A stretch of 64,000 nucleotides of DNA, from the NCBI GenBank assembly GCA_021234155.1, contig JAJEKV010000020.1:3580563-3644562 (forward strand), read 5' to 3'. The position numbers and the translations under genes are program-made. The notes beneath the pieces were generated by a model that had not been told where the DNA came from, made no database searches, and saw only the letters and a list, made by a program, of their open reading frames with translations. This DNA comes from Isoetes taiwanensis (lineage: Eukaryota; Streptophyta; Lycopodiopsida; Isoetales; Isoetaceae). How positions within the stretch are numbered: position 1 is the first letter of the stretch; each line of letters starts with the position of its first letter. Below are positions 313 through 42,688 of the stretch, in pieces.

Positions 313-2323
313 TTGCATTACATTGCACCTAGAATGGTGATGAATATCCACCAAGAAAGAGTGAGCTTGAAGAAGGAACTACTTGGTTTGGAGGGGCTTT
401 CGAGAGATGACATGTTAAAGATGCATGAAATCTACAACATTGAAAAGGAAGTGACCCGAAATGTTTGGAAGTTGCATGAAGATGAAGCTACAAGCACTCA
501 TATGTGGGTGCAACAACACCTTGACAAGATTGTATTCCATTATGAGCAAGGTGAGATCTTCCAATTGGGTGTTATGACTCCCACCCAAAGAGGAGCCTTC
601 TTTGAGATTTGGAAAGGATAGGGCATTGTGTCTCGACTCCACCTACAAGACGAACGGGATGAGGTAGGGTTGCACCTCTTGCATTTCAATGCTCATATAA
701 GACTTTAGCTTCCTTGCCAACATTCTTAAGTTGTGTTGCTACTTTACATTAAAGGTACTACCTCTTCACTATCATTGGATTCGATGACTACTTCAATGGG
801 ATGCCTTTGGCTTGGATTATCACGAACTCCCAGAAGAAAGATGCAATTGCAAGATGGCTAGAAGCCATGAAAGTGTGGGTTGAACGCCATGACTCAACCT
901 GGAAGCCCTCATGCTTTATCACCGATTCTTGTGATGCCGAAATACATGCAATTAAAAAGGTAACAATGTTTCCACTATGAGCAATTTTAAGTGGTTCATT
1001 TTGCACACTCACATGTGGCATCTCTCTACACTTCAGGTTTACCCTAGCGTGCGCTTGAACCTTTGCATCTGGCATGTGAGAAGAGACTGGTTGAAGTGGT
1101 TAGTCAAGAACGTGAAGAACAAGGAGATAAGGAACCAAATGTTTAAGGAATTGGGTGAGATCATGTATGGAATCAAGTGTCCCCCAGGTAACAATGAATA
1201 TGGAGAGGATTACAAGGAGGCTGTTAAAGTAGAAGCTTTGAGAAAGTTGGAAACCCTGAAAGGAAAGTATCCTCAGTATCCCAGATTGGCCTCCTACATG
1301 AGTCGTGAGTGGACTCGCAATATATGTGAATGGGTGTTGGCCACAAGAATGTTCCCCCATTCAAACCAAGAAACCAATGCTGCAATAGAGGGTTGGCACA
1401 AGATACTAAAGATGCGCCTGGGCATCTCCAAATCCTGTCTGAAGGGAAGGAGGATGGACTGGCTACTACATATGCTTGTCAATGAAGTTGAGGCACATAC
1501 AACATACTCAAGGTAATTTGCAAAAGATAACGTGTTTTGTATACTTACGTGTGCACTAACACACCACGTTGTTTCATTTACAAGCACACAGGGGGATGAA
1601 AGAGGCTGGTTTTGTCATAAACACATCACAAGAGAAAATTATAGAATCGGCTATTCGAGGGGCGTGGGATTCGATGATGCAAATACCTTTGTAGACCTCG
1701 GCAAAGGCGAGGCATATGTCCGAACTCTTGATCTCAACCGCCAACCGCACTTTGTGAGTGGGGCACACAGAATTGGGCGAAGTTGTGATTGCCCATGGGG
1801 TGCCAAAGGTAACCTTTGCAAACACCAAGTTAAGGTTATTCAACTAATGGACGATTCTGAGAGAGCAGGACATCTTGAAGGTTCTAGGTTCGATTATGGA
1901 AATGCAAGTGGTGGCATGGAGCACTTGCGCCCTTGTACACCTGGGGTCCCCCCTGGAGATTCACTTGAAGAGATAGTTAGTCTAGAGGATGACATTCTCC
2001 CTATGAAGAAAGTTGGGTTGACCGTAGAGGAAGCTAGGGCCTCACTAGAATCGTGTGTTGCAAGGGTTATGGGACGGGCCTCCAAGGATCCCAGCCTCCT
2101 CATAGCCACAGAGGCGATGATGAGACAACTCGACACCAGGCTTGAGAGGATGGACGAAGAGGATGGACAAGACACAACTATAATGTCTTTGTCAGTGCTG
2201 GAGGAAGAGGAGGCATATGGAACGAGCCTTGTAAGGATGAAGCCACTCTTGGAAATAGGGAAGAGGGGGCCAAAGGACAAGAAACGGAGTTGGAAGGAAG
2301 TTGAGATGGAGAGCCTTGCTTAG
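313..2323 (+). pseudogene. MULE-like transposase with SWIM zinc finger, four exons, one frameshift
   Basis: Mutator-like transposase of the plant MULE/SWIM class, a nuclear DNA-binding cut-and-paste enzyme or its domesticated relative. Exons can be read at about 313-663, 755-959, 1037-1512 and 1585-2323, all joined by GT-AG introns (75-91 nt) that keep the frame. Exon 1 carries an N-terminal region ending in the LCLDSTYKTNGM segment. Exon 2 has AWIITNS and the FITDSCDAEIHA segment. Exon 3 has LCIWHVRRDW, typical of MULE transposase cores. Exon 4 has a SWIM finger (CDCPWGAKGNLCKH, a CxCx(n)CxH pattern) near 1780-1825 and an acidic tail. A single extra base near 608-615 throws exon 1 into a TAG at 619-621; the reading continues in the next frame into LCLDSTYK. 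The rest is open, so decay is young. Family assignment is from recognised motifs. Confidence 0.82.
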
Positions 2324-27840: not shown

Positions 27841-30257
27841 AAGAAATATGGAATAATATTAAATTTTTGCGGTAAAAGATGGTTGACAATGAATGCAACA
27901 GAAATAACTATTTTTCAATGTGCCTGGATCTAGAATACTACAGAGAGACAGTATATAGAATACTCAAATAAGTGAAAAGAGCATTTAAAGCTTACCTATG
28001 TCCTCTTCAAGTACTGACATGTCCAATGTGCATACTTAAATGTACACCCAACCTGCTCTGAAACGAGCTAAGAATGCATTATTCTCTTACATCTTCAAGT
28101 TGAGAAAGCTCACTTTGGGCCCTTTCTAAAGAAATCATAACTGCATTATGGTAGTCGCCTTCAACTGCTTGTTCCATGAGCTGCTTGTTCCATGAGCTGA
28201 GCCACTTGTAATGCCTGTAGAAATTTTTTCATTTCAGCTTCAGAATACTAGAGGGATTTGCTAATACAACAGTACAACTCTAATGTTTGATAATATAACA
28301 ACAAGATATCCATGGCATATCTTCATGTCCTCAAGAACAGAATTGCTATGACTTTGCATGTTGCATAAACAAATGCACATTAGAGCGAAAGGAAATGTGA
28401 CTGAAAGGCCATCAATCATGATTAAAATACTCTAAAATGGCCATAATTCTGACTTATGTTTGATCTTGCCTGATCCCTGGTGCAGATGCCCTGATGTTGT
28501 TGTATACTGGTGAATACAGACATACTTGCATGAGAGATGGCATGTTTATGGTCAATACTTGCAATATTTAACTCGTCATAGAGGCAAATCACCTTCCAAT
28601 TTATGCAAACCGGAGACTTGGATATGTGCCAGATTTTTTTAACACATGAGGGAGAATTAGAGTAGCTCAGGGCCATTGGAATTCGGACATTTCTAGCAAA
28701 GAATATGGTCTGCGGCAATTAGGATGTATGCTTGCAGGCAAAATTTGGTTCGACTTCGGTGCCAATAAATGTCTCTTCCAAGCTATAGTTGAAAGCTCTG
28801 CAGGGATTGCTCTGGCAAAATGGCCATGGCTAGGAATAGGCTGCTGAAGATTTTGACGGCTATGGCAGATACAAATGTAACGGGGAAAACGAAGATGTAA
28901 ACCGGCAGGGATTTCCAATCCAATCACTTGGGCCACAAATTTTACCTTTGAACCGTTCTTTTCTGCAAAGATTCAAACTTCACTAAAAATTTCAACATGC
29001 GATAATGTGGGCACATTCAATCAGATCAAAATGAGGCATATTTTCCCTAATGCACAGAATCGAAAGCAATCTCTGCAAAAAATGGGCTAGTCAATAGCAT
29101 ACCTGTTTGTTCTGCTTAGCATCAGAAATCATGACTCATTGCAGAGATTAGAATGAAGGGTCGGAAAGAATAAGGTCGAAGTCTGTGTCTTCATCTGATG
29201 TGCATCCCAGTTCTACCATTCAGTTTAGTTGCACTGGTTATGCATTTATAGAGATGTGCTGCAAGGCTTCCGAATGTAGTATAGTTACACAAGATCCAAT
29301 CGCAAAGTGAAGCTCTTCGGACTTATCGTCAGCATTTTGTCTTTGCTCCAGTTCTTGGCATCTACAATATAAGAATAAGTCGATTACAGATTACATAAGG
29401 TTGCAAGCAATACTGGAGATTAAAACTCACCTCAAAGCTATTTGATCAAAACTCGCCTCAAGCTGCTCTCAAGTGACGATGATGCTACCCTAAACCAAGC
29501 CGATTCCTTCTAAATCCTTCTATTGCAACTACGATAATCTCCAGGCTTGTTTTCGAGATTGGGCACCAGAATGGATGTGGCAACCGGTTAGCCGGTTTCC
29601 AAAGTGGTTGCTCAACAACAGCGGCCACGGTCAGTTTACACCCGATAGCAAGTTTGGAGCAGTCATTGGCATATTCCTGGTATATACTGATATATATCTA
29701 GAATATGCCATAAACCCACATGGACAAGGGCTTGCCCCCTTAAGGGCAACCCAAAAACAAGACTCTAATTTAAAATGTACTAAAAAATGGCGCCCTACAA
29801 AATCTAAATAAAAGATGAATTCCCCCTTTAGGTATTGGTTGTTTTTTAGGTCCGGAAGGGCTCGGAAGTTTTGTTAATACAACCACCAAAAGATTAGTTA
29901 AAATAGACGTCAACCTCGAACCCCCCTATTATTTTGGTGCATATTCTTGCAAGGCGTCTAGCCAAAGATGTATGTCAAAATCTTAGTTCAATCCATGCAA
30001 AAAAATTGACGCATACACGAGTGCCTGATTAACAAGGAATTGAGTGTTGTCTATGAGGGTCTGATAATCCGTCGGGATACTGACCAAATGTGCAACAAAC
30101 TGGCACAATTACACTGGATTCGAAACAGGAAGTTCTTGGTCTACAAAAGGGGCACATTAAAGGGGCAACTTTAATTAAAGGGCACTTTAATAAAGACCGC
30201 AACTGCACAATTGATTCCTTGCAAAGGTGCGGAAAGAGTGGTGGTGGAGAAACTTAC
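27841..30257. other. Spacer with possible exon relics and a retroposon tail
   Basis: A minus-strand stretch at 28095-28220 (MEQAVEGDYHNAVMISLERA) could be a further upstream FAN1-type exon but is not diagnostic; beside it lies a 16-bp tandem duplication (GAGCTGCTTGTTCCAT, about 28162-28195). Another minus-strand frame at 28667-28936 is unrecognised. 29727-29760 holds a GGGCTTGCCCCCTTAAGGGC tail with an A-rich end. Confidence 0.35.
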
Positions 30258-30395
30258 CGGGGCGAAAGCATTAGCATCCATGAGTGTGGTTGCATGCAGA
30301 GTGTTGAAGCGGAAAGAGCTAGCCATAGCGGCAGGAACATTGAGGCGCTGGAGGAAACGGAAAGGACTTGAAGAAATAGGATTATGGCAGTTCAT
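30258..30395 (-). CDS. Possible first coding exon with organelle-targeting character
   Basis: Opens with ATG at 30395 and runs 46 codons to a strong donor (CCG then GTAAGTTT at 30257). The peptide is rich in Ser, Thr, Ala, Arg and Phe and nearly free of acidic residues (MNCHNPISSSPFRFLQRL, NVPAAMASSFRFNTLHATTL), as in plant chloroplast or mitochondrial transit peptides. Downstream exons on the minus strand would lie below 30.1 kb, where I cannot identify a match. It may be a gene whose body has decayed or lies beyond repeats. Confidence 0.35.
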
Positions 30396-30742
30396 AGTGC
30401 AATTTATATACAGTTCTGGGATAGGAAATTAGAGCCGTTGAAGGAGATAGGTGGCAACCTTTGAAGAGACATACAGAGAGGACGAAAATTTTGGCTAAGT
30501 CCCAAGAAGGGGAATAAAAAAGGCACAATATCACAATGTCGTGAAGAGGAGCCAGCACAGAGAAGCGAATCTTTTAGTAGTGCATATCCAGATGGTGAGA
30601 TAATAAAAAGAGACGGAATTTGCGGCATAATATGGTAATCTCCAATAGTATTTGCTTTAATGAGAAAATCCTTGAAGGGATGAGGATGGGATGAGTGGAA
30701 TGATTGCGATTGTGCCAGAGCGGCAGAGTGTTAAGCCAGTGA

Positions 30743-31003
30743 CCTATATAAGAGTAGACCGGGTTGCAATGAAGAGACCACTATTCGAGCACCATGGAGA
30801 TGAGCAATACGATGCCCAACAATTGCCTTGAATGGATGACTTGCCGTATGAACAATTTAGATATATGGAAGCTGAAGAATCGTGGAATTCCAATGGGTGG
30901 GTGGGTGGAAGGAGTGGCAGAGAATCTCAATCTAGATTTTGATTACATGGATGTGGTAATACATCTGCGTCGGCACCCTGGGCAGGGATATCACATCCCT
31001 TGA
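30743..31003 (+). CDS. Small ORF behind a TATA-like box, unidentified
   Basis: CTATATAAG at 30743-30751 is followed 42 bp later by ATG at 30794 and a 69-codon frame to 31003 (MEMSNTMPNNCLEWMTCRM, then GYHIP). TATA-to-ATG spacing is promoter-like. No domain is recognised. The adjacent gypsy remnant is on the other strand, so this is not obviously its LTR promoter. Confidence 0.25.
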
Positions 31004-31129
31004 ATCTGTTCTGCAACCAATCCCGAATAAGTATGTAGGTTATGTAATAGGTAGCGCAAGTATAGGGAAAGAACTCCTCAATTTGTATGTAAACTTGTTT
31101 TTGAAATGTAAACATTTGTCTCAAGTTTC

Positions 31130-32480
31130 TGTGTCTTGTTTTGTGGTTGGATTAGTACTATCACCTTTGTGAAATAATTTGAGAAGAAACCCATTAATCA
31201 AGGATACAAGTGGAGTGACATCCAACTCAGCGAGTTGAAAAACACTAGGATGAACGACCTTTGTAACTTCATAAGGTCCTAACCATCGAAATTTGAGTTT
31301 GCCAGGATGGTGCTTGTATCTGGAATCATATAATAGGATTAAATCTCCTTCCTTGAATTCTTTGATTCTAATCTTTTGGTCATGCTAGGATTTCCGTAAC
31401 TGGTGTCCCAGCAAGGACGCGAAGATAAGCGTCTCGGTGGACTTCATCAAGTTATTGGAGTTGATAGACACATCCTCTGAGAGTAGGAGGAGGATTAGGT
31501 GTCATTGCCAACTAAAATCTCAATGTGGGTAGAACATACTCAAAAGGCATGAAGGCTTCTTGGCCATAAACAAATTTGAAAAGTGTTTGGCCCATAGCAA
31601 TTTTGTAAGTAGTGTTATAGGCCCATAAAACAGTCGGTATCTTTTCATGCCAATCTCTCAGAGAAGCATCATAGACTTTCTTGAGAATATATCAGTGTTT
31701 TATTAGTGCTTTCTGCTAGACCATTGCCATGAGGATAGTAGGGTGTGCTTTTTCTGTGATGGATACGAAGGTAATCTGTGAGCTCTTTGATGGTGCGATT
31801 CACAAAATGAATACCACAATCACTAACAAGTTCCTTGGGGCACGCAAAGCGGGTGATTATGTGCGTGTAGAGAGCCCTGCCATGTTGGGATGCAGTATTG
31901 TCTGGCAGGGCACAAGCTTCTGCCCGTGAAAAGGATACAACATGCCCAGGTATGGCTAGCCGGTGGGTCCAAAGAACCTATAAAATCCATACCCCACGTA
32001 CTAAAGGGGAGAGACGTGGCAACCGGGGTTAACGGTAAGGCATCAGGGGTAGTTGATCGACCCACACTTTAACAGACATCACAATTGTGGGTTTGTGCAT
32101 GAGGATCTTTAAGCAGCGTGGGCCAATGATAACCATTCAGAAGGATTTTCTGCGGCGTATTATCACCGCCGAAATGGCCACACCCCAAGCCTTCATGTGC
32201 TAGTTGAATAATTCGTGGAATTTCATTGGGAAGAAAACATCTGCGTAAAATCATATCCTTGCCTCGTTTGTATAGATAGCCTGCAACCATGGATTAAGCA
32301 GCATTAACAGATTCCTTTAAGAACTAAGAATATCGTCAAAGTATGAGTGGTCCTCTTCTGGCTATTACGTCCAACTATAGCATTTGTCCTCTTCTAAATG
32401 AAACGTAGCACAACTTCCTGACACCTTTCTTCTACTTCAGAAAGAAGTATGTTCTCATCTAAGACAAGCAAATCATGTGG
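31130..32480 (-). mobile_element. Ty3/gypsy pol remnant (linker and integrase)
   Basis: On the minus strand, in broken frames: a linker with LLSEVEERCQEVVLRF; an RNase H-to-integrase spacer with YLYKRGKDMILRRCFLP; an H2C2 zinc-binding domain (HEGLGCGHFGGDNTP then HNCDVC, about 32069-32200); the catalytic core start (WGMDFIGSLDPPASH, near 31990); VYGQEAFMPFEYVLPT near 31530; and the C-terminal GDLILLYDSRYKHHPGKLKF then RWLGPYEV near 31290. No LTRs, PBS or reverse transcriptase were found. An internal pol scrap. Confidence 0.85.
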
Positions 32481-34165
32481 CCATAACCTAAAGCAACCAA
32501 TATTAGCCTTCTTCAAGCAAATTCCAGAAACTGGTTACTAGCTGAGCTGTCTTCAAGCAAATTCCAGAAGAACTAGTTACTAGCTAAACTGAATACATAT
32601 ACTATGGTACTAGTTAGCTGGTTGTCACTTAAAGGCAACTCATATTTTTTACGTGCTTTCGCTCAACTGGTTATAAACCAAAACAAATTACTTCGATACT
32701 GCTACGCCCCTTAAAGATGGTCTGATAAAACACCCCTGAGGAGGCTTGATAGATCGTCATGCATGAGCAATAACTTTACATGAAAACATGCAGGACCACA
32801 AATAAGAACACAGCTTCACATAGTCTCCCATCCTAGAAATGCCTTGCACTTGTAGGGCCTTATATCATTAAAAAAATTTCTTATATGAAAAATAATAACT
32901 ATACTTCCACATTTCAGTGAAGATATGTCTCCTGATGATATAGATATGGATATGCTAAAACCTAAACTACAGCTTTACAGGGTGAGCTCTGAGTTCCATA
33001 CCTTCCAATCATATTATGCAGTGTAAGAAAAATTTCCTTCTCTATGTCAAAACAAGATTCAAGATGGCAGACGAAAGAATCACACAATGGTGTACTTGCC
33101 TCTGTGCCTAAATAATGGAAGTAAAATCATAATCAATAACATTGAAATGCAGCCTACATCTAAATATAATTCCAATCAAATATTCACTTCTATGAGGATC
33201 GTCATTTACTTCATATTCTCAGCCAATAAAGATAGTTAATTCCTAAGTGCCTTTAGAAACCAGAAGATGCTAAGAACATTGTTGTCTTTGAAATTCTACA
33301 GATTATATTCCTAGTAAAGCATAGTAGATAACTGTAGTTAACTATTTGAACCAGTAAAAGAAGTTTGTCTTGCATCTCATGATAAAAAACAGACCATGAC
33401 TATTTTTTCATGTTCCATTGCATCTCAAAAATTCTCTGTCTACTCTGCTGCTCATGCTTTCAAGTCCCAGCCATCTCTGTTGTAAGGCGATGATAGATGA
33501 TGCATGGAAAGACTTGATGTTTAATAGACCAATCAAGCCAGCACAAACAAACACGAATGTGAGCGAGTACATGTGAATGACGACCACCACCACCTCTCCC
33601 ATCATAGATGGCACAATTGCACCTGAAAATGCAACAGCTTGTCATACATCATGAAGAACATCAATCCAAACTGAAATCTTCATCTTACATTTTCATCACG
33701 ACGTGCAAACAACCTAAAAATGATCCTCTAGCTTAGGTTGAAGTAGAAAAATGCAAATGCCTAATGTTCATGGGAGTTTGTAAGAAAGCTTAACTGCTTG
33801 GAGTATATAGTATCAAAAATATCTATAAAATTGATCTGTTTCCAGATTGCATAAATTAAATGACGTCTCCTGTTCTTCCAAAATCGATTGTGTCTTAATT
33901 AGAGAAATTTTACTTCAGGCTATCAGTATAGTTAATCAAAAAGCCTTACCTTCTTAACTGCAAGGACTAGGCATCAGCACCTTCCACAATGACAATCATA
34001 CAATCTGGTACAGATGGACATCTTTGCAACATGGAAACCATGAACTCCAGAAAAAAGCAGGTGCACGAAGAACTGCATATAACTACAAATACAATGAAAG
34101 AATTAACATGGACAAACATCAAAAGCTTTAAATTGCAGATGAAAAGTATTTGAACAGTCAGGCCA
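32481..34165. other. AT-rich spacer, no gene recognised
   Basis: A short imperfect tandem duplication with core TCTTCAAGCAAATTCCAGAA lies at about 32507-32575. Some splice-like signals occur on the minus strand around 33.6-33.9 kb, but no coding segment can be supported. Confidence 0.4.
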
Positions 34166-34170
34166 CTTAC

Positions 34171-34247
34171 CTTCTGACACTGCTTTTCACAAAACCATTT
34201 CGAACTTCCAACCTCAATGCCTTTGGCTGTTAAACACGATACATGAT
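34171..34247 (-). pseudogene. Orphan exon of a PHD-finger protein (IDM1-like)
   Basis: A 77-nt segment with acceptor GTTGCAG upstream and donor GTAAGTG downstream encodes HVSCLTAKGIEVGSSKWFCE then KQCQK. This is the second half of a PHD finger (H-x2-C then W-F-C-x3-C) in the style of plant PHD plus acetyltransferase regulators such as IDM1. The phase (two leading bases) would complete the usual Tyr of YHVSC. No neighbouring PHD exons were found within several kb, so it is a fragment, or an exon of a gene with long introns. Confidence 0.5.
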
Positions 34248-35322
34248 CTGCAACAAAAACGCTAATGCAGGTATATAGAACATGATTAACTGGTTCTAAA
34301 TAATTGATAGTCAATTTGATGAATCATACCTTGTAAGCTCTCTGATTTTGTAGTCTCTTTCTATAAATACTTGGGCATTAACATAGGACATAGGCAAGCA
34401 GTTGAAACATCCTTTATGCATCACAAATATGCACCAAACAACACCGCGTGGGGGTGTTGTTTTGGAGGGCGGGGGTTTTGGGGAGGGGGAGAGGGAGGGT
34501 TTTAATTTCAAAAATTGACGTCCATTTTAGTGATGGTTGTATGTTGGTAGTTTTACTAATATACTAATTGATGTGACAAGACATGAGGAAACACAACTAA
34601 TAGACAAAACCTTTTATAAATGCTTGTCCATGCCTAGATGTTGATACACAGCCCGGCTCGATGCATCATATGATTAGTATCGTCTTATACAATTGATGCC
34701 CATGGAATTGATGGCTCACGAATTAATTAATTAAACCTTACTTATGCTTATGTGTTCGCTTGCTTGTCAGATGGTGCTCCTAAGATGTCAGATGGAATAG
34801 GAGGGTAAAATAACCCTTCACATTTATTATTCTACTTAGATGCAAAATGCAAATTGTGGTTATAAATTTCTACTATATTTCAAAATATGTAATCCTCCAT
34901 ATATGATCTAGTAGACGAATCAAAAGATATTTTATTCGCACTTCGAAATCCATATCTAAAACTGATCTATCTATTTTACGTGGCAAAACGTAGCAGGCAT
35001 GAAAGCAAAAGTTTTGGATGAGGCAACATTCAAGTTCTAAGTGGCCAGCTAGCAAGGCTGGAAGAACACACTAAATTGTGTGTAAAACATTTATCTCTTG
35101 AAAAACTCTAGTCTGCATATTAAAAAGACTAGTGCGTGCATATCTTGCCAAAATATCGCATCCAAGACTTAGGATGACATGCATCACCAAACAACATCCA
35201 TTTGGTGGCTTAAGCACAGTTTTAGAGCGATTCCTATTCTGACATTCCTTTTGCAGAAACATAAATTGAAGCATTTTACTTAAAAGGCAGTGAACAAAAA
35301 AATGCAGATCTTTTCATACCAG
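34248..35322. other. 3' flank of the F-box gene; no other gene recognised
   Basis: Low-complexity G-rich tract at 34450-34500 (GGGGGTTTTGGGGAGGGGG). Otherwise AT-rich and featureless; the segment next to 35322 is probably the 3' untranslated region of the F-box gene. Confidence 0.4.
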
Positions 35323-37007
35323 TCATTTGTTGATCGTGAGTGAAACTGGGATGAGGGAAGGTCTATATGCAATACCAAAGCTATAATAATGCTCTCCTGG
35401 ACTGTTGATTCTGTTCCAACTCTGGTTCCTTAAATTGCACACTATAACTGGAACAGACATGGTCCCACATGGAAAATAGTTGGTTCCTCCCACACACATT
35501 ACATTGCCTTCCACTATTCCAACTCTGACTGCAGCAACCTTGGAAACATGGTCCTCATGCACTTCCCAAACACCCATGCCAGTAACAATATTATAAGCAG
35601 AATAGGTGTCCAACCCCGAGGTGCTTCCTAAGTACAAGGAACCCTTGTGCCTCAACAAGCAAAAGCCTTGCCAAGGTGGAAGCAGCAGCAAACGCATTGC
35701 AGAATCTTGAGGTAGGATTTCTACAGCTTCAGGAGGTAATACTTCATCCTCAGAAGGTAGAATATCTGATAGTTCAATTTTGTTGCTCTCAAGTACAGTA
35801 ATCCACTCTTCATGATGCAGACCAAAGTCTACAAGTTCTCTCCCTGGCCTATCACTCTCTCTGTCGTATTCTTCGTCATTTTCTCGGTTGTATTCTTCAT
35901 ATTCTAATGTATCAGACCAGACATTAGCAACAGAATCATAAACATGATAAACATAATCGTAGTCGCATTCGCGCCATACACCTGTAATAGCAAGCCTGTA
36001 TGCACCTGAAATACAATCCAGTAATTCCATCTTCACCTGGACTCCGCATCTATTCATATGTAAATGACTCCACAACCTGACTAACGTGCTCTTAAGAGGT
36101 GGCAGCCGGAACCATTCCCTTATCAAAGGATTGCCCACCACGAGGGCAAAAATTGAAGGACATTCTGCCACTAGTCTAGCACACACCAACCCCTAAGAGG
36201 CGTGGGATAGTCTTACCCTGGATTGGGGGATCCCGGAGGTGTGATCCTAGAGGACGGGATCCCCGAGGACGTGTGATCCCGGAGGACAGAATACCCCTTA
36301 CTGCGCAGTAAGTGTGCATATTTTTTGGCCCTTGAAAGAAAAAATGGGGCAGATTTCGTGTGGGATTTTCTCCCTTGATCTGCAACCAAATCGAATGGGG
36401 TCAGTTCGAGGATGGTCGGAATGGGCTGGATCAGAGGCACAGGTAGGAGCAAAGGAGGAATCGAAGCGAGCGCCGCTGTAATCAGCAAGCTTCAATCCGG
36501 CCAAAAATCAGCCCTAAACTGCGCAGTAACCCATTAACTGCGCAGTTGACTGTGTGATCCCGGAGGACAGGATCTTTTCTGATGGTGATCCCGGAGGACG
36601 GGATCGCCACCTCCGGGATCCCCCAATCCAGGGTAAGACTATCCCACGCCCCCCTGAGATGAAGCCACAACCTGAATGTCTGGGCTTATAGGAGAGAACC
36701 TGGATATACCCCTAACAGAAGTCCACAAATCTGTCCATGAAGGATTTTCCTCCCCCGTCTTAAAGCAACTTAGCAAAACCCATGAGTCCTCATCATGCTG
36801 CCACTTCTGCCTGAATCTGGAGGAGCTAATGAAAGAATGCCATGCCTTGCAGACACTCAAACATCTGAAGAGGCTCCTTACGTCGAGAGCTAGAAGTATA
36901 TTTTCCAATAAATCCTCGAAAATCACTGATCTCAGGTTATCCATTTCCACATTTGAAAACAGTCCCTTGTTCCTCTTCATCCCAATCTCTTCTGCAGAAC
37001 TAGCCAT
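35323..37007 (-). pseudogene. F-box/kelch-type gene split by a 452-bp MITE
   Basis: F-box proteins are the substrate adaptors of SCF ubiquitin ligases. The N-terminal part runs from ATG at 37007 (another in-frame ATG at 37022): MASSAEEIGM, then the F-box (SVIFEDLLENILLALDVRSL, then CLSVCKAWHSFISSSRFR, about residues 27-70). The C-terminal part (36198-35323) has VVGNPLIREWFRLPPL, typical of plant F-box-associated propeller domains, then CDYDYVYHVYDS, an acidic insert, GFCLLRHKGSLYLG and YSFGIAYRPSLIPVS, ending in a stop at 35323. The two parts are separated only by the 452-bp element at 36199-36650 plus one 9-bp target-site copy. Taking these away conceptually leaves an unbroken frame of about 410 codons. 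In the present state translation stops inside the element at 36639-36641. Confidence 0.85.
36199..36650. mobile_element. MULE-type MITE with perfect 43-bp TIRs
   Basis: 452-bp non-autonomous element. Terminal inverted repeats are identical over 43 bp (36199-36241 and 36608-36650, outer end GGCGTGGGATAGTC). It is flanked by a 9-bp target-site duplication with one mismatch (CCCCTAAGA at 36190-36198, CCCCTGAGA at 36651-36659). Nine-base duplications plus long TIRs indicate the Mutator superfamily. The interior holds repeated palindromic units of GTGATCCCGGAGGAC then GGATC (near 36238, 36276, 36553 and 36584) and three copies of the palindrome ACTGCGCAGT (near 36299, 36518 and 36537). No coding capacity. 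Confidence 0.92.
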
Positions 37008-37987
37008 GACCTGCCTAATCATATCTACTGCATGTACCACAGAGATTTTGTGATCTTTGTAATTACAACACTCAAGATTTAAGAAATGCGTCAAAAAGAA
37101 AGACCTTAAAACTCAGAGCTCTTGTTGTCGCGAGATGCCTCATAGCCGGAACGATCCATAGTGCAGAAGCCCCCCCCTGCAAACAAGACCTAAAGGCGAA
37201 ATGCTTCCCGCCATGGCAACGGAAATCTAGATCCTTGCTTACGTATATGAGAATTTCCTTCTACTTGCAATTCTGTTATGGAAAATGTGCCGCCTTTATA
37301 CATTCCTCTAAGGAATTGTTTCGTTACAAAAGTTTGTAACATTCCTGTAACGAATTGTTTAGTGTTGTTTATAGTTGTCAAAAAAAAATTGTTAAGTAGG
37401 GTTAAAAAATAGAATCTTCCAAATTCTAGACGATCCCTCCCACCTTAGTGAATGTTTGCCCACTCTACGAATGCAATTGGAGCGATGTTCCCCAAGATTT
37501 TCTTGATATGAAGCTTGAAGGAAACTGCATTCGTCAGTACCGGTTCAAAATATTTTTTGCTATGGTTTACTATCCTTGTTCGTCGAGGTATTTCAACTTT
37601 GGATACAGGGGCAAAATCTACAATTCAAGCTTTACCTCGAAAGCAGTAGTTAGCTTCTCGATGTATTTTGGTACAAAGTGTTCTTTATGTGCATTATACT
37701 CCTATATTAATTTTATATTGCTTGATCGAAAATAGGGTATCTTCTGTAGGTAAATATACTTATATGTTTACTGCATGCTTTACATGATCTTGGTAAGCGA
37801 CATCAAAACATTGGGCACGTGGTAATACTTGCTGCTAAATGTATTTAAAACATGTGATTAAATATCATTTTTATTCAGATCCCTGCGAACAGAACAGAAG
37901 CTTATTTACAAAGGCAAAAATTTGGTAATCAAAGCTTTTTGTCTAAGTTTTAAAGTTATACCGACAAGACTTGCCATTGGATAGATG
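37008..37987. other. 5' flank of the F-box gene and spacer
   Basis: Presumed promoter side of the F-box gene, without a clear TATA box. A direct duplication with core GGAATTGTTTNGTTA occurs at about 37310-37370. A plus-strand frame of 95 codons at 37448-37735 is unrecognised. Confidence 0.4.
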
Positions 37988-38270
37988 TCACAGACCTTTG
38001 ACTTCCTCCTCTGTGAATTGAAGAATATTACCTACCAAAGGAAGCACATCATTAAGAATTTCGAGATGATCATATAATTGGACCAACCGCTCATCCCATT
38101 GCTGCATAGGAATATATCCAAGAGTAGGATGTGATCGATATAATATTTTGCACCAAAAGGTCCAAGGCTCACGTAGCAGCAATTCAAACATTTGCTTTTG
38201 ATGCTCAACAACAAAGCGTGCCTTTATGCATTTCAACACGGACTTATACTTTTTGATGGCATACTGACAA
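37988..38270 (-). mobile_element. LINE ORF2 linker fragment
   Basis: An 83-codon minus-strand frame reads QMFELLLREPWTFWCKIL, PTLGYIPMQQWDERLVQLYD and FTEEEVKGL. This resembles the region between endonuclease and reverse transcriptase of plant LINEs (FWK--, W--YF--LY, FTEEEV). Upstream YAIKKYKSVLKCIKARF fits the same linker. Short, isolated and without a start. Confidence 0.45.
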
Positions 38271-39974
38271 TGAAGCTTGTACTATTGAGAATCCTGTTTG
38301 CTCTAATAGTGAGTCCTGTTTGTTTAAAATGAATAAACTTGTAATTTATACTGAGATACGTTATGTTTGAGCACTCTCGAACATGTATCTACACATATAT
38401 AATCAAGCTTCTTATTTTTCTTTTTCTTTTTTTGTTCTCTCCTCATTTTTTCTCTGCCGCAATCTATATCACTATTGAAAAGCCACGTTTTCGGTGAGAT
38501 GGTTGAGGAGATCTCCACCGTATATGTTGGCAGTGCCATAGCCACACTGCCATAGCCACAACTCGTGCTTTTGCTTCTGGCAGAGGATCAAACGACACCA
38601 TAGCATTTATACTTGCCAAAGGAATCGACACAATTTTTAAGTATTTGTGCAAAGAGCCAGTGTCGATGTTAGTCTTTCCTTGAAAAAACAGAGCAAAACT
38701 CCTTTTTTTGCTTTTTGTGTATTGTGGAAAGCTAATTTACCTCCAATCCATTTGGGCTTCGTTCGTGGCTCGATATGTTGAAGCTGAGGCTAAAGCAGCG
38801 ACGGCGGGTTGAGCAGAGCAAAGCAAAAGGAAAATGACTATGGTATTTTTTTCACCATCAGGGCATAGTCCTTCTTCTGTATGAAGAACACGCCATCTTC
38901 TGCTTCATTCTGCTTCCTTGTGAAGGTTGCATTTACTTACAGGATTGAGTTCAATTTAGTTAAAGTATTTTGATTGAGTTCAGTTTTGTTAAAGTTGAAG
39001 GCATCGCGCGGCCTTCTGAGGACATGCCTTCTAAGTCTTCTGCTTTCATTTACACAAAAGCAAAAAAGTTTTGTATTGATTTTTCTCCTGCTCTGATGTC
39101 TCTGGCTAATTTACAGCAGAAGGTGGCATGCTGCATGCTGCCACTCTTGACAAGCCAACTTTGTGGGCCATGGTATTTATGCTTAAAGCTTAAAATTACT
39201 AAAGCTTTCTGCTCGTCCTGCACCACCCACAAAGGGCTTCGGGAGCTAGAAAAAAATTGGTAAGCATTCTTCTTCCCTTGTTAGAATCGGACAATTGCTT
39301 AGCATAGGCCCTGACCCGGGCAACACTTAGGCTGCAGATGTAGCCAGGGCCACTCCATCACTCCATGCATGGCAGTCCTGTGCAACCTCAGACTCTTCGC
39401 TGGAACTAGGCATGCTCCAAATCTTCCATGGAAGCAAATCGATGGCTGCTAATCTTCAAGCAAACTCTGAGGACCTGTGCACGTTACAGCAGAAGCCGCC
39501 CTACAGATGCTCCTGCAAAATATGGTGCAGAAGGTATGGATTATAATTTACTGCAGGATTTGCAGGCCGTGGATGAATTTCTGCATTCCAGCATCATTGT
39601 CCATCATCAGGGGTCGAATTCAAGGGACAAATTTACCCATTGAAAAAACCCAATTTTTTTCACATAAAATGCATTGTCGCTATGGTGTTGTGGCTATGAC
39701 AGATTGCTAGAAGCAAGCAGGGCATCATATCCGACTAGTCTTTCCTTTCTTCGGTATGGTTTTCTGATGAAGTTATTTATATTAGAATGTATCTGCTAGG
39801 GATTGAAACCGCCAGAATGCCAACTATGCCAACAGATTCGCATCAGAACATTTCAGAATAACAGCTATGGTGCATCTAATAATCGCCTTAGGCTTCTTAA
39901 TCAGTACCTCGTCCAATCTTACTCTTTAAAATGTGATTTCAAAGAAAAATTTGTAACTTATTCACCTTGGTAGA
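38271..39974. other. Spacer, no gene recognised
   Basis: A 24-nt string at 38284-38307 (core GAGAATCCTGTTTGCTCTAA) recurs inverted at 44965-44988. Several frames of 60-97 codons between 38.9 and 39.7 kb show no recognisable motif. Confidence 0.35.
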
Positions 39975-41213: not shown

Positions 41214-42688
41214 TCATGTGGAAGGTGTTGGGAATTCTACCCACAATATTTCCTTTCTAAGCATCGTACTGTAATACCTTAATATTCCATCTGCGCCATT
41301 AACTAAACCATCTGATAGATCAATATTAGAAGTTAGCTCGACAAGCATACCCAATTTCAGTCTCAATTCTTTATGCAATCCGTATGTCTTGCGAGCATTG
41401 GTTGGCAAACATGCTGTATGTGGACAACCTTTCTGTCGCACATCAGTGGCTGTGAGATTGTAAGAATGCTAGAGCGCTTGTTGTAGGACCTACACATGTA
41501 TGCATCCTTAGATGATATTGCAATACTGAAATAATATAAGACGTTTGCAAGATACCTACTCCTTATGTGCTTGGACATCGTCATATTTTGAGAATAAATA
41601 TGGAAGTGTCAACTTATTATGTGGGCATCTACAACATGCATTATTTATATCTATGTCCGTTTGTACTCCAATACGAATGTGCGACAAGCATTCTGCAAAT
41701 GGTAAATCGTCGCGCTGCCTGACAAGTTCAAAAAGCTCATAGTATCTGAAATTGGACTTCCATAAATGATTGATCCCTGGTATAGAAATAGAATCGAGAC
41801 ATTTTTGGTCCTTATCATCAAGATTATCAAAAACCATCTTGTCAAACAATGGTGGCAATTGATAAAAATCTCCAGAAGTTATGACATCTAGTCCGCCAAA
41901 TGGGATGTTCAATGTACTTTTGATGCTGTGGTGGAAAGATAAAAAATTAATAAAAATGATACATGTCCTCAATAGCACATTACTTACTTAATGAACTATT
42001 ATCTATTGCGTAAGGCATCAATGTATGAAAAGAACACTAGTCCCACCAATGATATCTCATTGACTACGGGCAATTTAACATCTTCATGTTTATTTCTCGT
42101 TACTTGCAGTACTTCACGTACAAGCATTTTGAGGTGTGCACCCATTGTGGCTGTAGGACGAATCTGAAATGCTGAGTGTATTGTGATCTCGTTTATATTC
42201 TTTGCAGCTTTTTCTGTATATGCCATTACAGTAGTTGTTGTTTTCCCGAGTCGTTTGGAAACTGTTGCTGAAAAATACTTTAATCCATCGATCAAGCACT
42301 CAACAAGTCTTGATTTACCGACACCAGCACCTCCAGTCAAAAAAAGTAATATTTGAAAATTGGAATCCGCTCCATGGTGTTCTTCGTTTGGCATCACGGC
42401 AATGTTTGGGATTTTTTATGAAAATCGTTCATTATCGAGATGCTTAAATGAAACTTGAAATGGCAACTCATAACCTACATCAAACTCATCATTCTCTTGG
42501 TGATGATCGAGTGAACCAACTGTATTCTCACTGACCGACATTTCAATGTTTTCCCATTCACCTTCTTTTGTAAAATATAATCTTGAATGTGCTTCTTCAA
42601 TCATTTTTTCATTTCGAATATAAGCAGCATAGCATGTCTCTCCTTCGCATACTAATTCTTTTTCGTTCGTGAATGGTACATGAAGCAT
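41214..42688 (-). pseudogene. Helentron PIF1-like helicase domain
   Basis: SF1B helicase relic. Walker A in FLTGGAGVGKSRLVECL (about 42.30-42.35 kb), the threonine-rich Ia region (TTTTVMAYTEKAAKN), a degraded Walker B (VVNEISLVG, where DEISM is expected), the GDFYQLPPL motif (41.86 kb) in a segment starting GGLDVITS, the ELVRQRDD and LSHIRIGVQTD stretch (41.68-41.72 kb), and the C-terminal LGMLVELTSNIDLSDGLVNG (41.28-41.35 kb). Breaks occur at about 41.98 and 41.5 kb. The changed Walker B and frame breaks make it inactive. Confidence 0.85.

Follow-up and report, generated by a model that had tools for sequence, protein, structure and literature searches.

A Mutator-like MITE interrupts the coding frame of a duplicate F-box gene from Isoetes taiwanensis

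The window, by which we mean the whole stretch of 64,000 nucleotides of Isoetes taiwanensis DNA analysed here, carries on its minus strand an F-box gene whose open frame is split by a 452-bp element at positions 36199–36650. It is very probable that a non-autonomous Mutator-like MITE entered the coding sequence of this dispersed-duplicate gene, duplicated 9 bp of its target and broke the gene. The breaking of a redundant F-box copy by a MITE is an ordinary kind of mutation, and Mutator-like MITEs are already known; what the locus offers is a well-resolved case of a MITE breaking a lycophyte gene, with element-free paralogous sites as controls.

The 5′ part of the gene (37007–36651, minus strand) is open for 119 codons from the ATG at 37007, the inferred start, and ends in ASSQG, and the 3′ part (36189–35323, minus strand) is open for 288 codons plus a stop and starts with LVCARLVAE. 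Removal of the element and one 9-bp copy yields a protein of 407 aa plus a stop, with the junction ...VASSQGLVCAR..., and the window gene has no frame break besides the element; this open frame suggests that the host coding sequence was a single exon. The 5′ part contains an F-box domain (Pfam PF00646, E 4.6e-07, 29.9 bits against a cut-off of 20.5). The 3′ part is a putative beta-propeller region, with a match to PF24750 that is only sub-threshold (E 0.058, 12.9 of 25 bits), as is that of the distant paralogue L023 (23.2 of 25 bits).

DNA and protein searches identified two close paralogues, L010/L040 (C1019, ~4.5 Mb off) and L011/L041 (C1075), and six distant paralogous places, among which the one on C1070 is almost the same in sequence as the one on C217, so that the two may represent haplotypes of a single place. 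The element was absent from the site in all eight aligned places (8/8). In the six distant ones the frame is uninterrupted at the site, is the same as that of the two parts in the window, and encodes VASSHGLVCAR or VASSQGLACAR; one of these places (L023/L042), which carries the F-box, has a frame of 413 codons from stop to stop that runs across the site and reads VASSHGLVCAR there. With the element missing from all eight places and the frame intact in the six distant ones, it is no old intron, and an ancient fixed intron was ruled out. The insertion is later than the diversification of the wider F-box gene family. The 5′ part also matches C993 and C1037, neither of which reaches the insertion site, and a further match (C217:85810–86157, 68%) lies outside the eight aligned places. 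Two closer outgroup candidates (L083 and L084, 81% and 79%) do not span the insertion site.

Relative to the window copy, the two close paralogues have in common four frame-breaking indels and one in-frame indel, and 18 bp present in both are missing, in frame, from the window copy. The assembly was made from nanopore reads polished with Illumina reads, as stated in the available part of PMC8566536, which means that some of the single-base indels may be errors; a haplotig-like pair, L045 and L046, differ in a homopolymer C run and show no substitution across 1507 aligned gene bases. L040 (2772–6596) and L041 also share a 3.8-kb block, ending near a dispersed repeat that is found in the window at 29632–29768. 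The search for how the window copy, L040 and L041 arose by duplication revealed shared blocks but no mechanism.

The element is bounded by TIR arms of 43 bp at 36199–36241 (plus strand) and 36608–36650 (minus strand), which are complementary at 43/43 positions. Its flanks, CCCCTAAGA (36190–36198) and CCCCTGAGA (36651–36659), are alike at 8/9 bases, the computed chance of a match of at least 8/9 between two given 9-mers being ~1e-4, and both their sequence and the duplications of the element family identify them as the two copies of a 9-bp target-site duplication (TSD). No coding capacity was found in the element, there being no frame of at least 120 codons inside its 452 bp, and its predicted RNA is a strong hairpin (z −13.9), as expected from the TIRs. 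An earlier note, made from the letters of this stretch, had described a 452-bp element with perfect 43-bp TIRs and a 9-bp TSD with an 8/9 match, and a gene open on both sides of it; all of this was confirmed, and the same ends recur in the family. Its description of a precisely delimited MITE breaking an otherwise open F-box gene is borne out by the eight element-free places, and the gene is indeed disabled at the DNA level, because straight read-through meets a stop at the fourth codon of the element and the open frame is lost. The two parts do join in frame, as had been claimed, although the junction given there (ASSQ to LVCAR) omits one glycine and should read ASSQGLVCAR.

A search of the assembly (1,658,258,908 bases, 1110 contigs) with the element gave 922 candidate places, the best 40 of which were scored, the window copy among them. 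We inspected the ends of the 39 other scored copies (L002–L008 and L048–L079, 86–98% identity). At their predicted ends, 18/39 carry identical 9-bp flanks and 5/39 carry flanks with a single mismatch, giving 23/39 with at most one mismatch; in three others the TSD measures 10 bp and is perfect in two of them, the third having one mismatch. In the other 13/39 no TSD of 9 or 10 bp fits the predicted ends with one mismatch or fewer; several of them are truncated, and in seven (L051, L065, L071, L073, L074, L078 and L079) an end is missing from the alignment. L069 and L071 show a 9-bp TSD with one mismatch once one end is moved by a base. A 30-base TIR pattern, allowing up to two mismatches, had 151 forward and 148 reverse matches in the whole assembly (control: 0 and 0), so the family numbers roughly 150 recognisable copies, going by the TIR count. 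The sharing of the same ends across the family rules out a chance inverted repeat at 36199–36650. Mutator-like elements generate TSDs of ~8–11 bp, usually 9. Its TIRs, the recurrent 9-bp TSDs at the family ends and the high copy number identify the window element as a MITE of the Mutator-like (MULE) type.

In a tree of 37 copies including that of the window, from which three partial copies were left out, the window element clusters with L002 (support 0.726) and L003 (0.985), and its terminal branch measures 0.0114 substitutions per site (~1.1%). The window element departs from the consensus at five bases that neither L002 nor L003 shares; two of these are unique to it, and the other three are also seen in distant copies. 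Five changes in 452 bases correspond to a 95% interval of 0.4–2.6%. The insertion is young but not of the last generation, and its age is modest. The earlier note had called it recent, partly on account of its perfect TIRs; this point holds less firmly, with ~1.1% of change since insertion and with perfect 43-bp TIRs in 4/37 copies, that of the window included. A recent and perhaps segregating insertion is a fair guess. The assembly yielded a single copy of the window locus, and no second allele or haplotig with an empty site; haplotig-like pairs exist elsewhere in it (L055/L056, both with the element).

A different history has to be considered for the two close paralogues. L040 (5486–5490) and L041 have in common a 4-bp deletion within the 9-bp target of the MITE, with adjacent bases altered: the site reads TTCATCTCAGGGG, as against TTCG[C/T]C----GGG in these two, and the six distant places have no gap. 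The insertion could be older, having occurred in the ancestor of the window copy, L040 and L041, and the element could have been kept in the window copy and lost by imprecise excision in the ancestor of L040 and L041, leaving the 4-bp deletion and the changed bases. We consider this doubtful, although several observations point towards it. The gap removes four of the nine target bases in both close paralogues and is absent from the six distant places, and the chance that a random shared indel overlaps the 9-bp site is ~5% (five shared indels, 1224 bp). The element branch (5/452, 1.1%) and the branch of the window gene since the split (~17/1844, 0.9%, an extrapolation based on 8 of 24 polarised differences, a further 27 being unpolarised) do not differ (Fisher p 0.79), so the timing allows an older insertion. 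However, L040 and L041 have three other frame-breaking indels in common, so that one more in these copies is unremarkable, and the site, read by eye, showed no element remnant except for 3 bp that are uninformative and present only in L040. Experience with MULE excision in yeast bears on both sides: according to the available part of PMC5225508, donors without TSDs left mainly 1–4-bp deletions, whereas excision from donors with TSDs was ~90% precise. The 4-bp deletion of L040 and L041 is probably independent of the element. It is with corresponding reserve that the three sister copies might be read as a record of the insertion, the retention (window) and the frame-shifting excision scar (two duplicates) of one MITE. 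If this were true, a duplicated F-box gene of a lycophyte would have been permanently lost, not rescued, through MULE excision, and the locus would serve as a natural experiment on whether such excision heals or breaks genes in this lineage.

It is highly improbable that the element is spliced as an introner-like intron and that the gene still works. Splicing around the element would be possible in principle, since 21 donor/acceptor pairs near the element ends keep the frame open, and one pair lies near the junctions, its donor 21 nt ahead of the element and its acceptor 6 nt past it. However, with splice scores calculated from position weights not trained on Isoetes, the five best frame-keeping pairs are mediocre (donors at the 82nd–91st percentile of GT in the window, acceptors at the 50th–78th of AG), the strongest donor, AGG|GTAAGA, sits towards the element's far end, and all 12 pairs displayed shorten the protein (at most 401 aa, against 407). 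An assembly artefact, either a chimera or a misplaced repeat, can be dismissed almost entirely, because although the assembly was built from long reads with scaffolding (PMC8566536, available part) and repeats can be misjoined, the element has a 9-bp TSD and exact family ends and lies inside an otherwise contiguous gene.

The preferred reading is thus the insertion of a Mutator-like MITE into the coding sequence of a dispersed-duplicate F-box gene, in which, as the structure of the locus shows, 9 bp of the target were duplicated. The transposase would have come in trans from a MULE at another genomic location, a putative autonomous partner with matching TIRs. Since the in-frame stop at the fourth codon separates the F-box from the C-terminal part, a functional SCF adaptor is most likely no longer made from the window copy, which at best encodes a short F-box-only peptide. 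The joined frame of the window copy has a dN/dS of 0.53 relative to L042 (Nei-Gojobori), and the F-box family was therefore under at least weak purifying selection. The polarised coding changes on the window branch comprise five non-synonymous and one synonymous (sites 956 to 265), too few to decide selection; as they show no constraint, the window gene may already have been drifting.

The family resembles plant Mutator-like (MULE) MITEs in being short and non-coding and in its TIRs, 9-bp TSD (10 in some copies) and high copy number, and differs from the known ones in having a sequence of its own. Mutator-type elements make up 41.5% of MITEs in a survey of 207 genomes (PMC12550479, available part), and in the main text of that survey, as far as available, the name Isoetes does not occur. 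In the open-licence literature we found no paper on Isoetes Pack-MULEs, MITEs or inverted-repeat transposable elements. F-box families are large and fast evolving (PMC3719486, available part), and, as a case of a duplicate F-box gene inactivated by an insertion, this locus differs in that both the exact element and the element-free paralogous sites are resolved.

MULE-like units with common ends enclose four of the distant F-box paralogues: L042 (C1054; 3385–9642), L043 (C907; 3338–6788), L044 (C1025; 2913–7281) and L047 (3742–7035), the last having the same unit ends as the other three. Read by eye, 9-bp duplications are found at the units of L042 (CTATTCAAA twice), L043 (TGAAGTGGT twice) and L044 (AGTTTTTAT/TTTTTTTAT). 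The left end of the unit has 535 candidate places in the genome, the best 40 of which were scored. The L042-type unit looks like a Pack-MULE that would carry and spread a whole F-box gene: four distant paralogues in MULE-like units, three of them with 9-bp duplications, recall Pack-MULEs, from which the set differs in that the cargo seems to be an entire F-box gene and in that the window copy is without those ends. MULE ends were sought in the window with the ends of the L043 unit and as inverted repeats of at least 24 bp in 29500–38500; the L043-unit ends had no match in the window, and the window copy was rejected as Pack-MULE cargo.

Two other frames in the window have similarities to mobile elements. 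The open frame at 1517–2323 (plus strand), with neighbouring frames from 253, encodes a SWIM zinc finger (PF04434, just above the cut-off) and is perhaps an old MULE transposase. The frame at 41999–42415 (minus strand) has an AAA/PIF1-like helicase match, with PF13245 above and PIF1 below the cut-off, and is perhaps a decayed Helitron.
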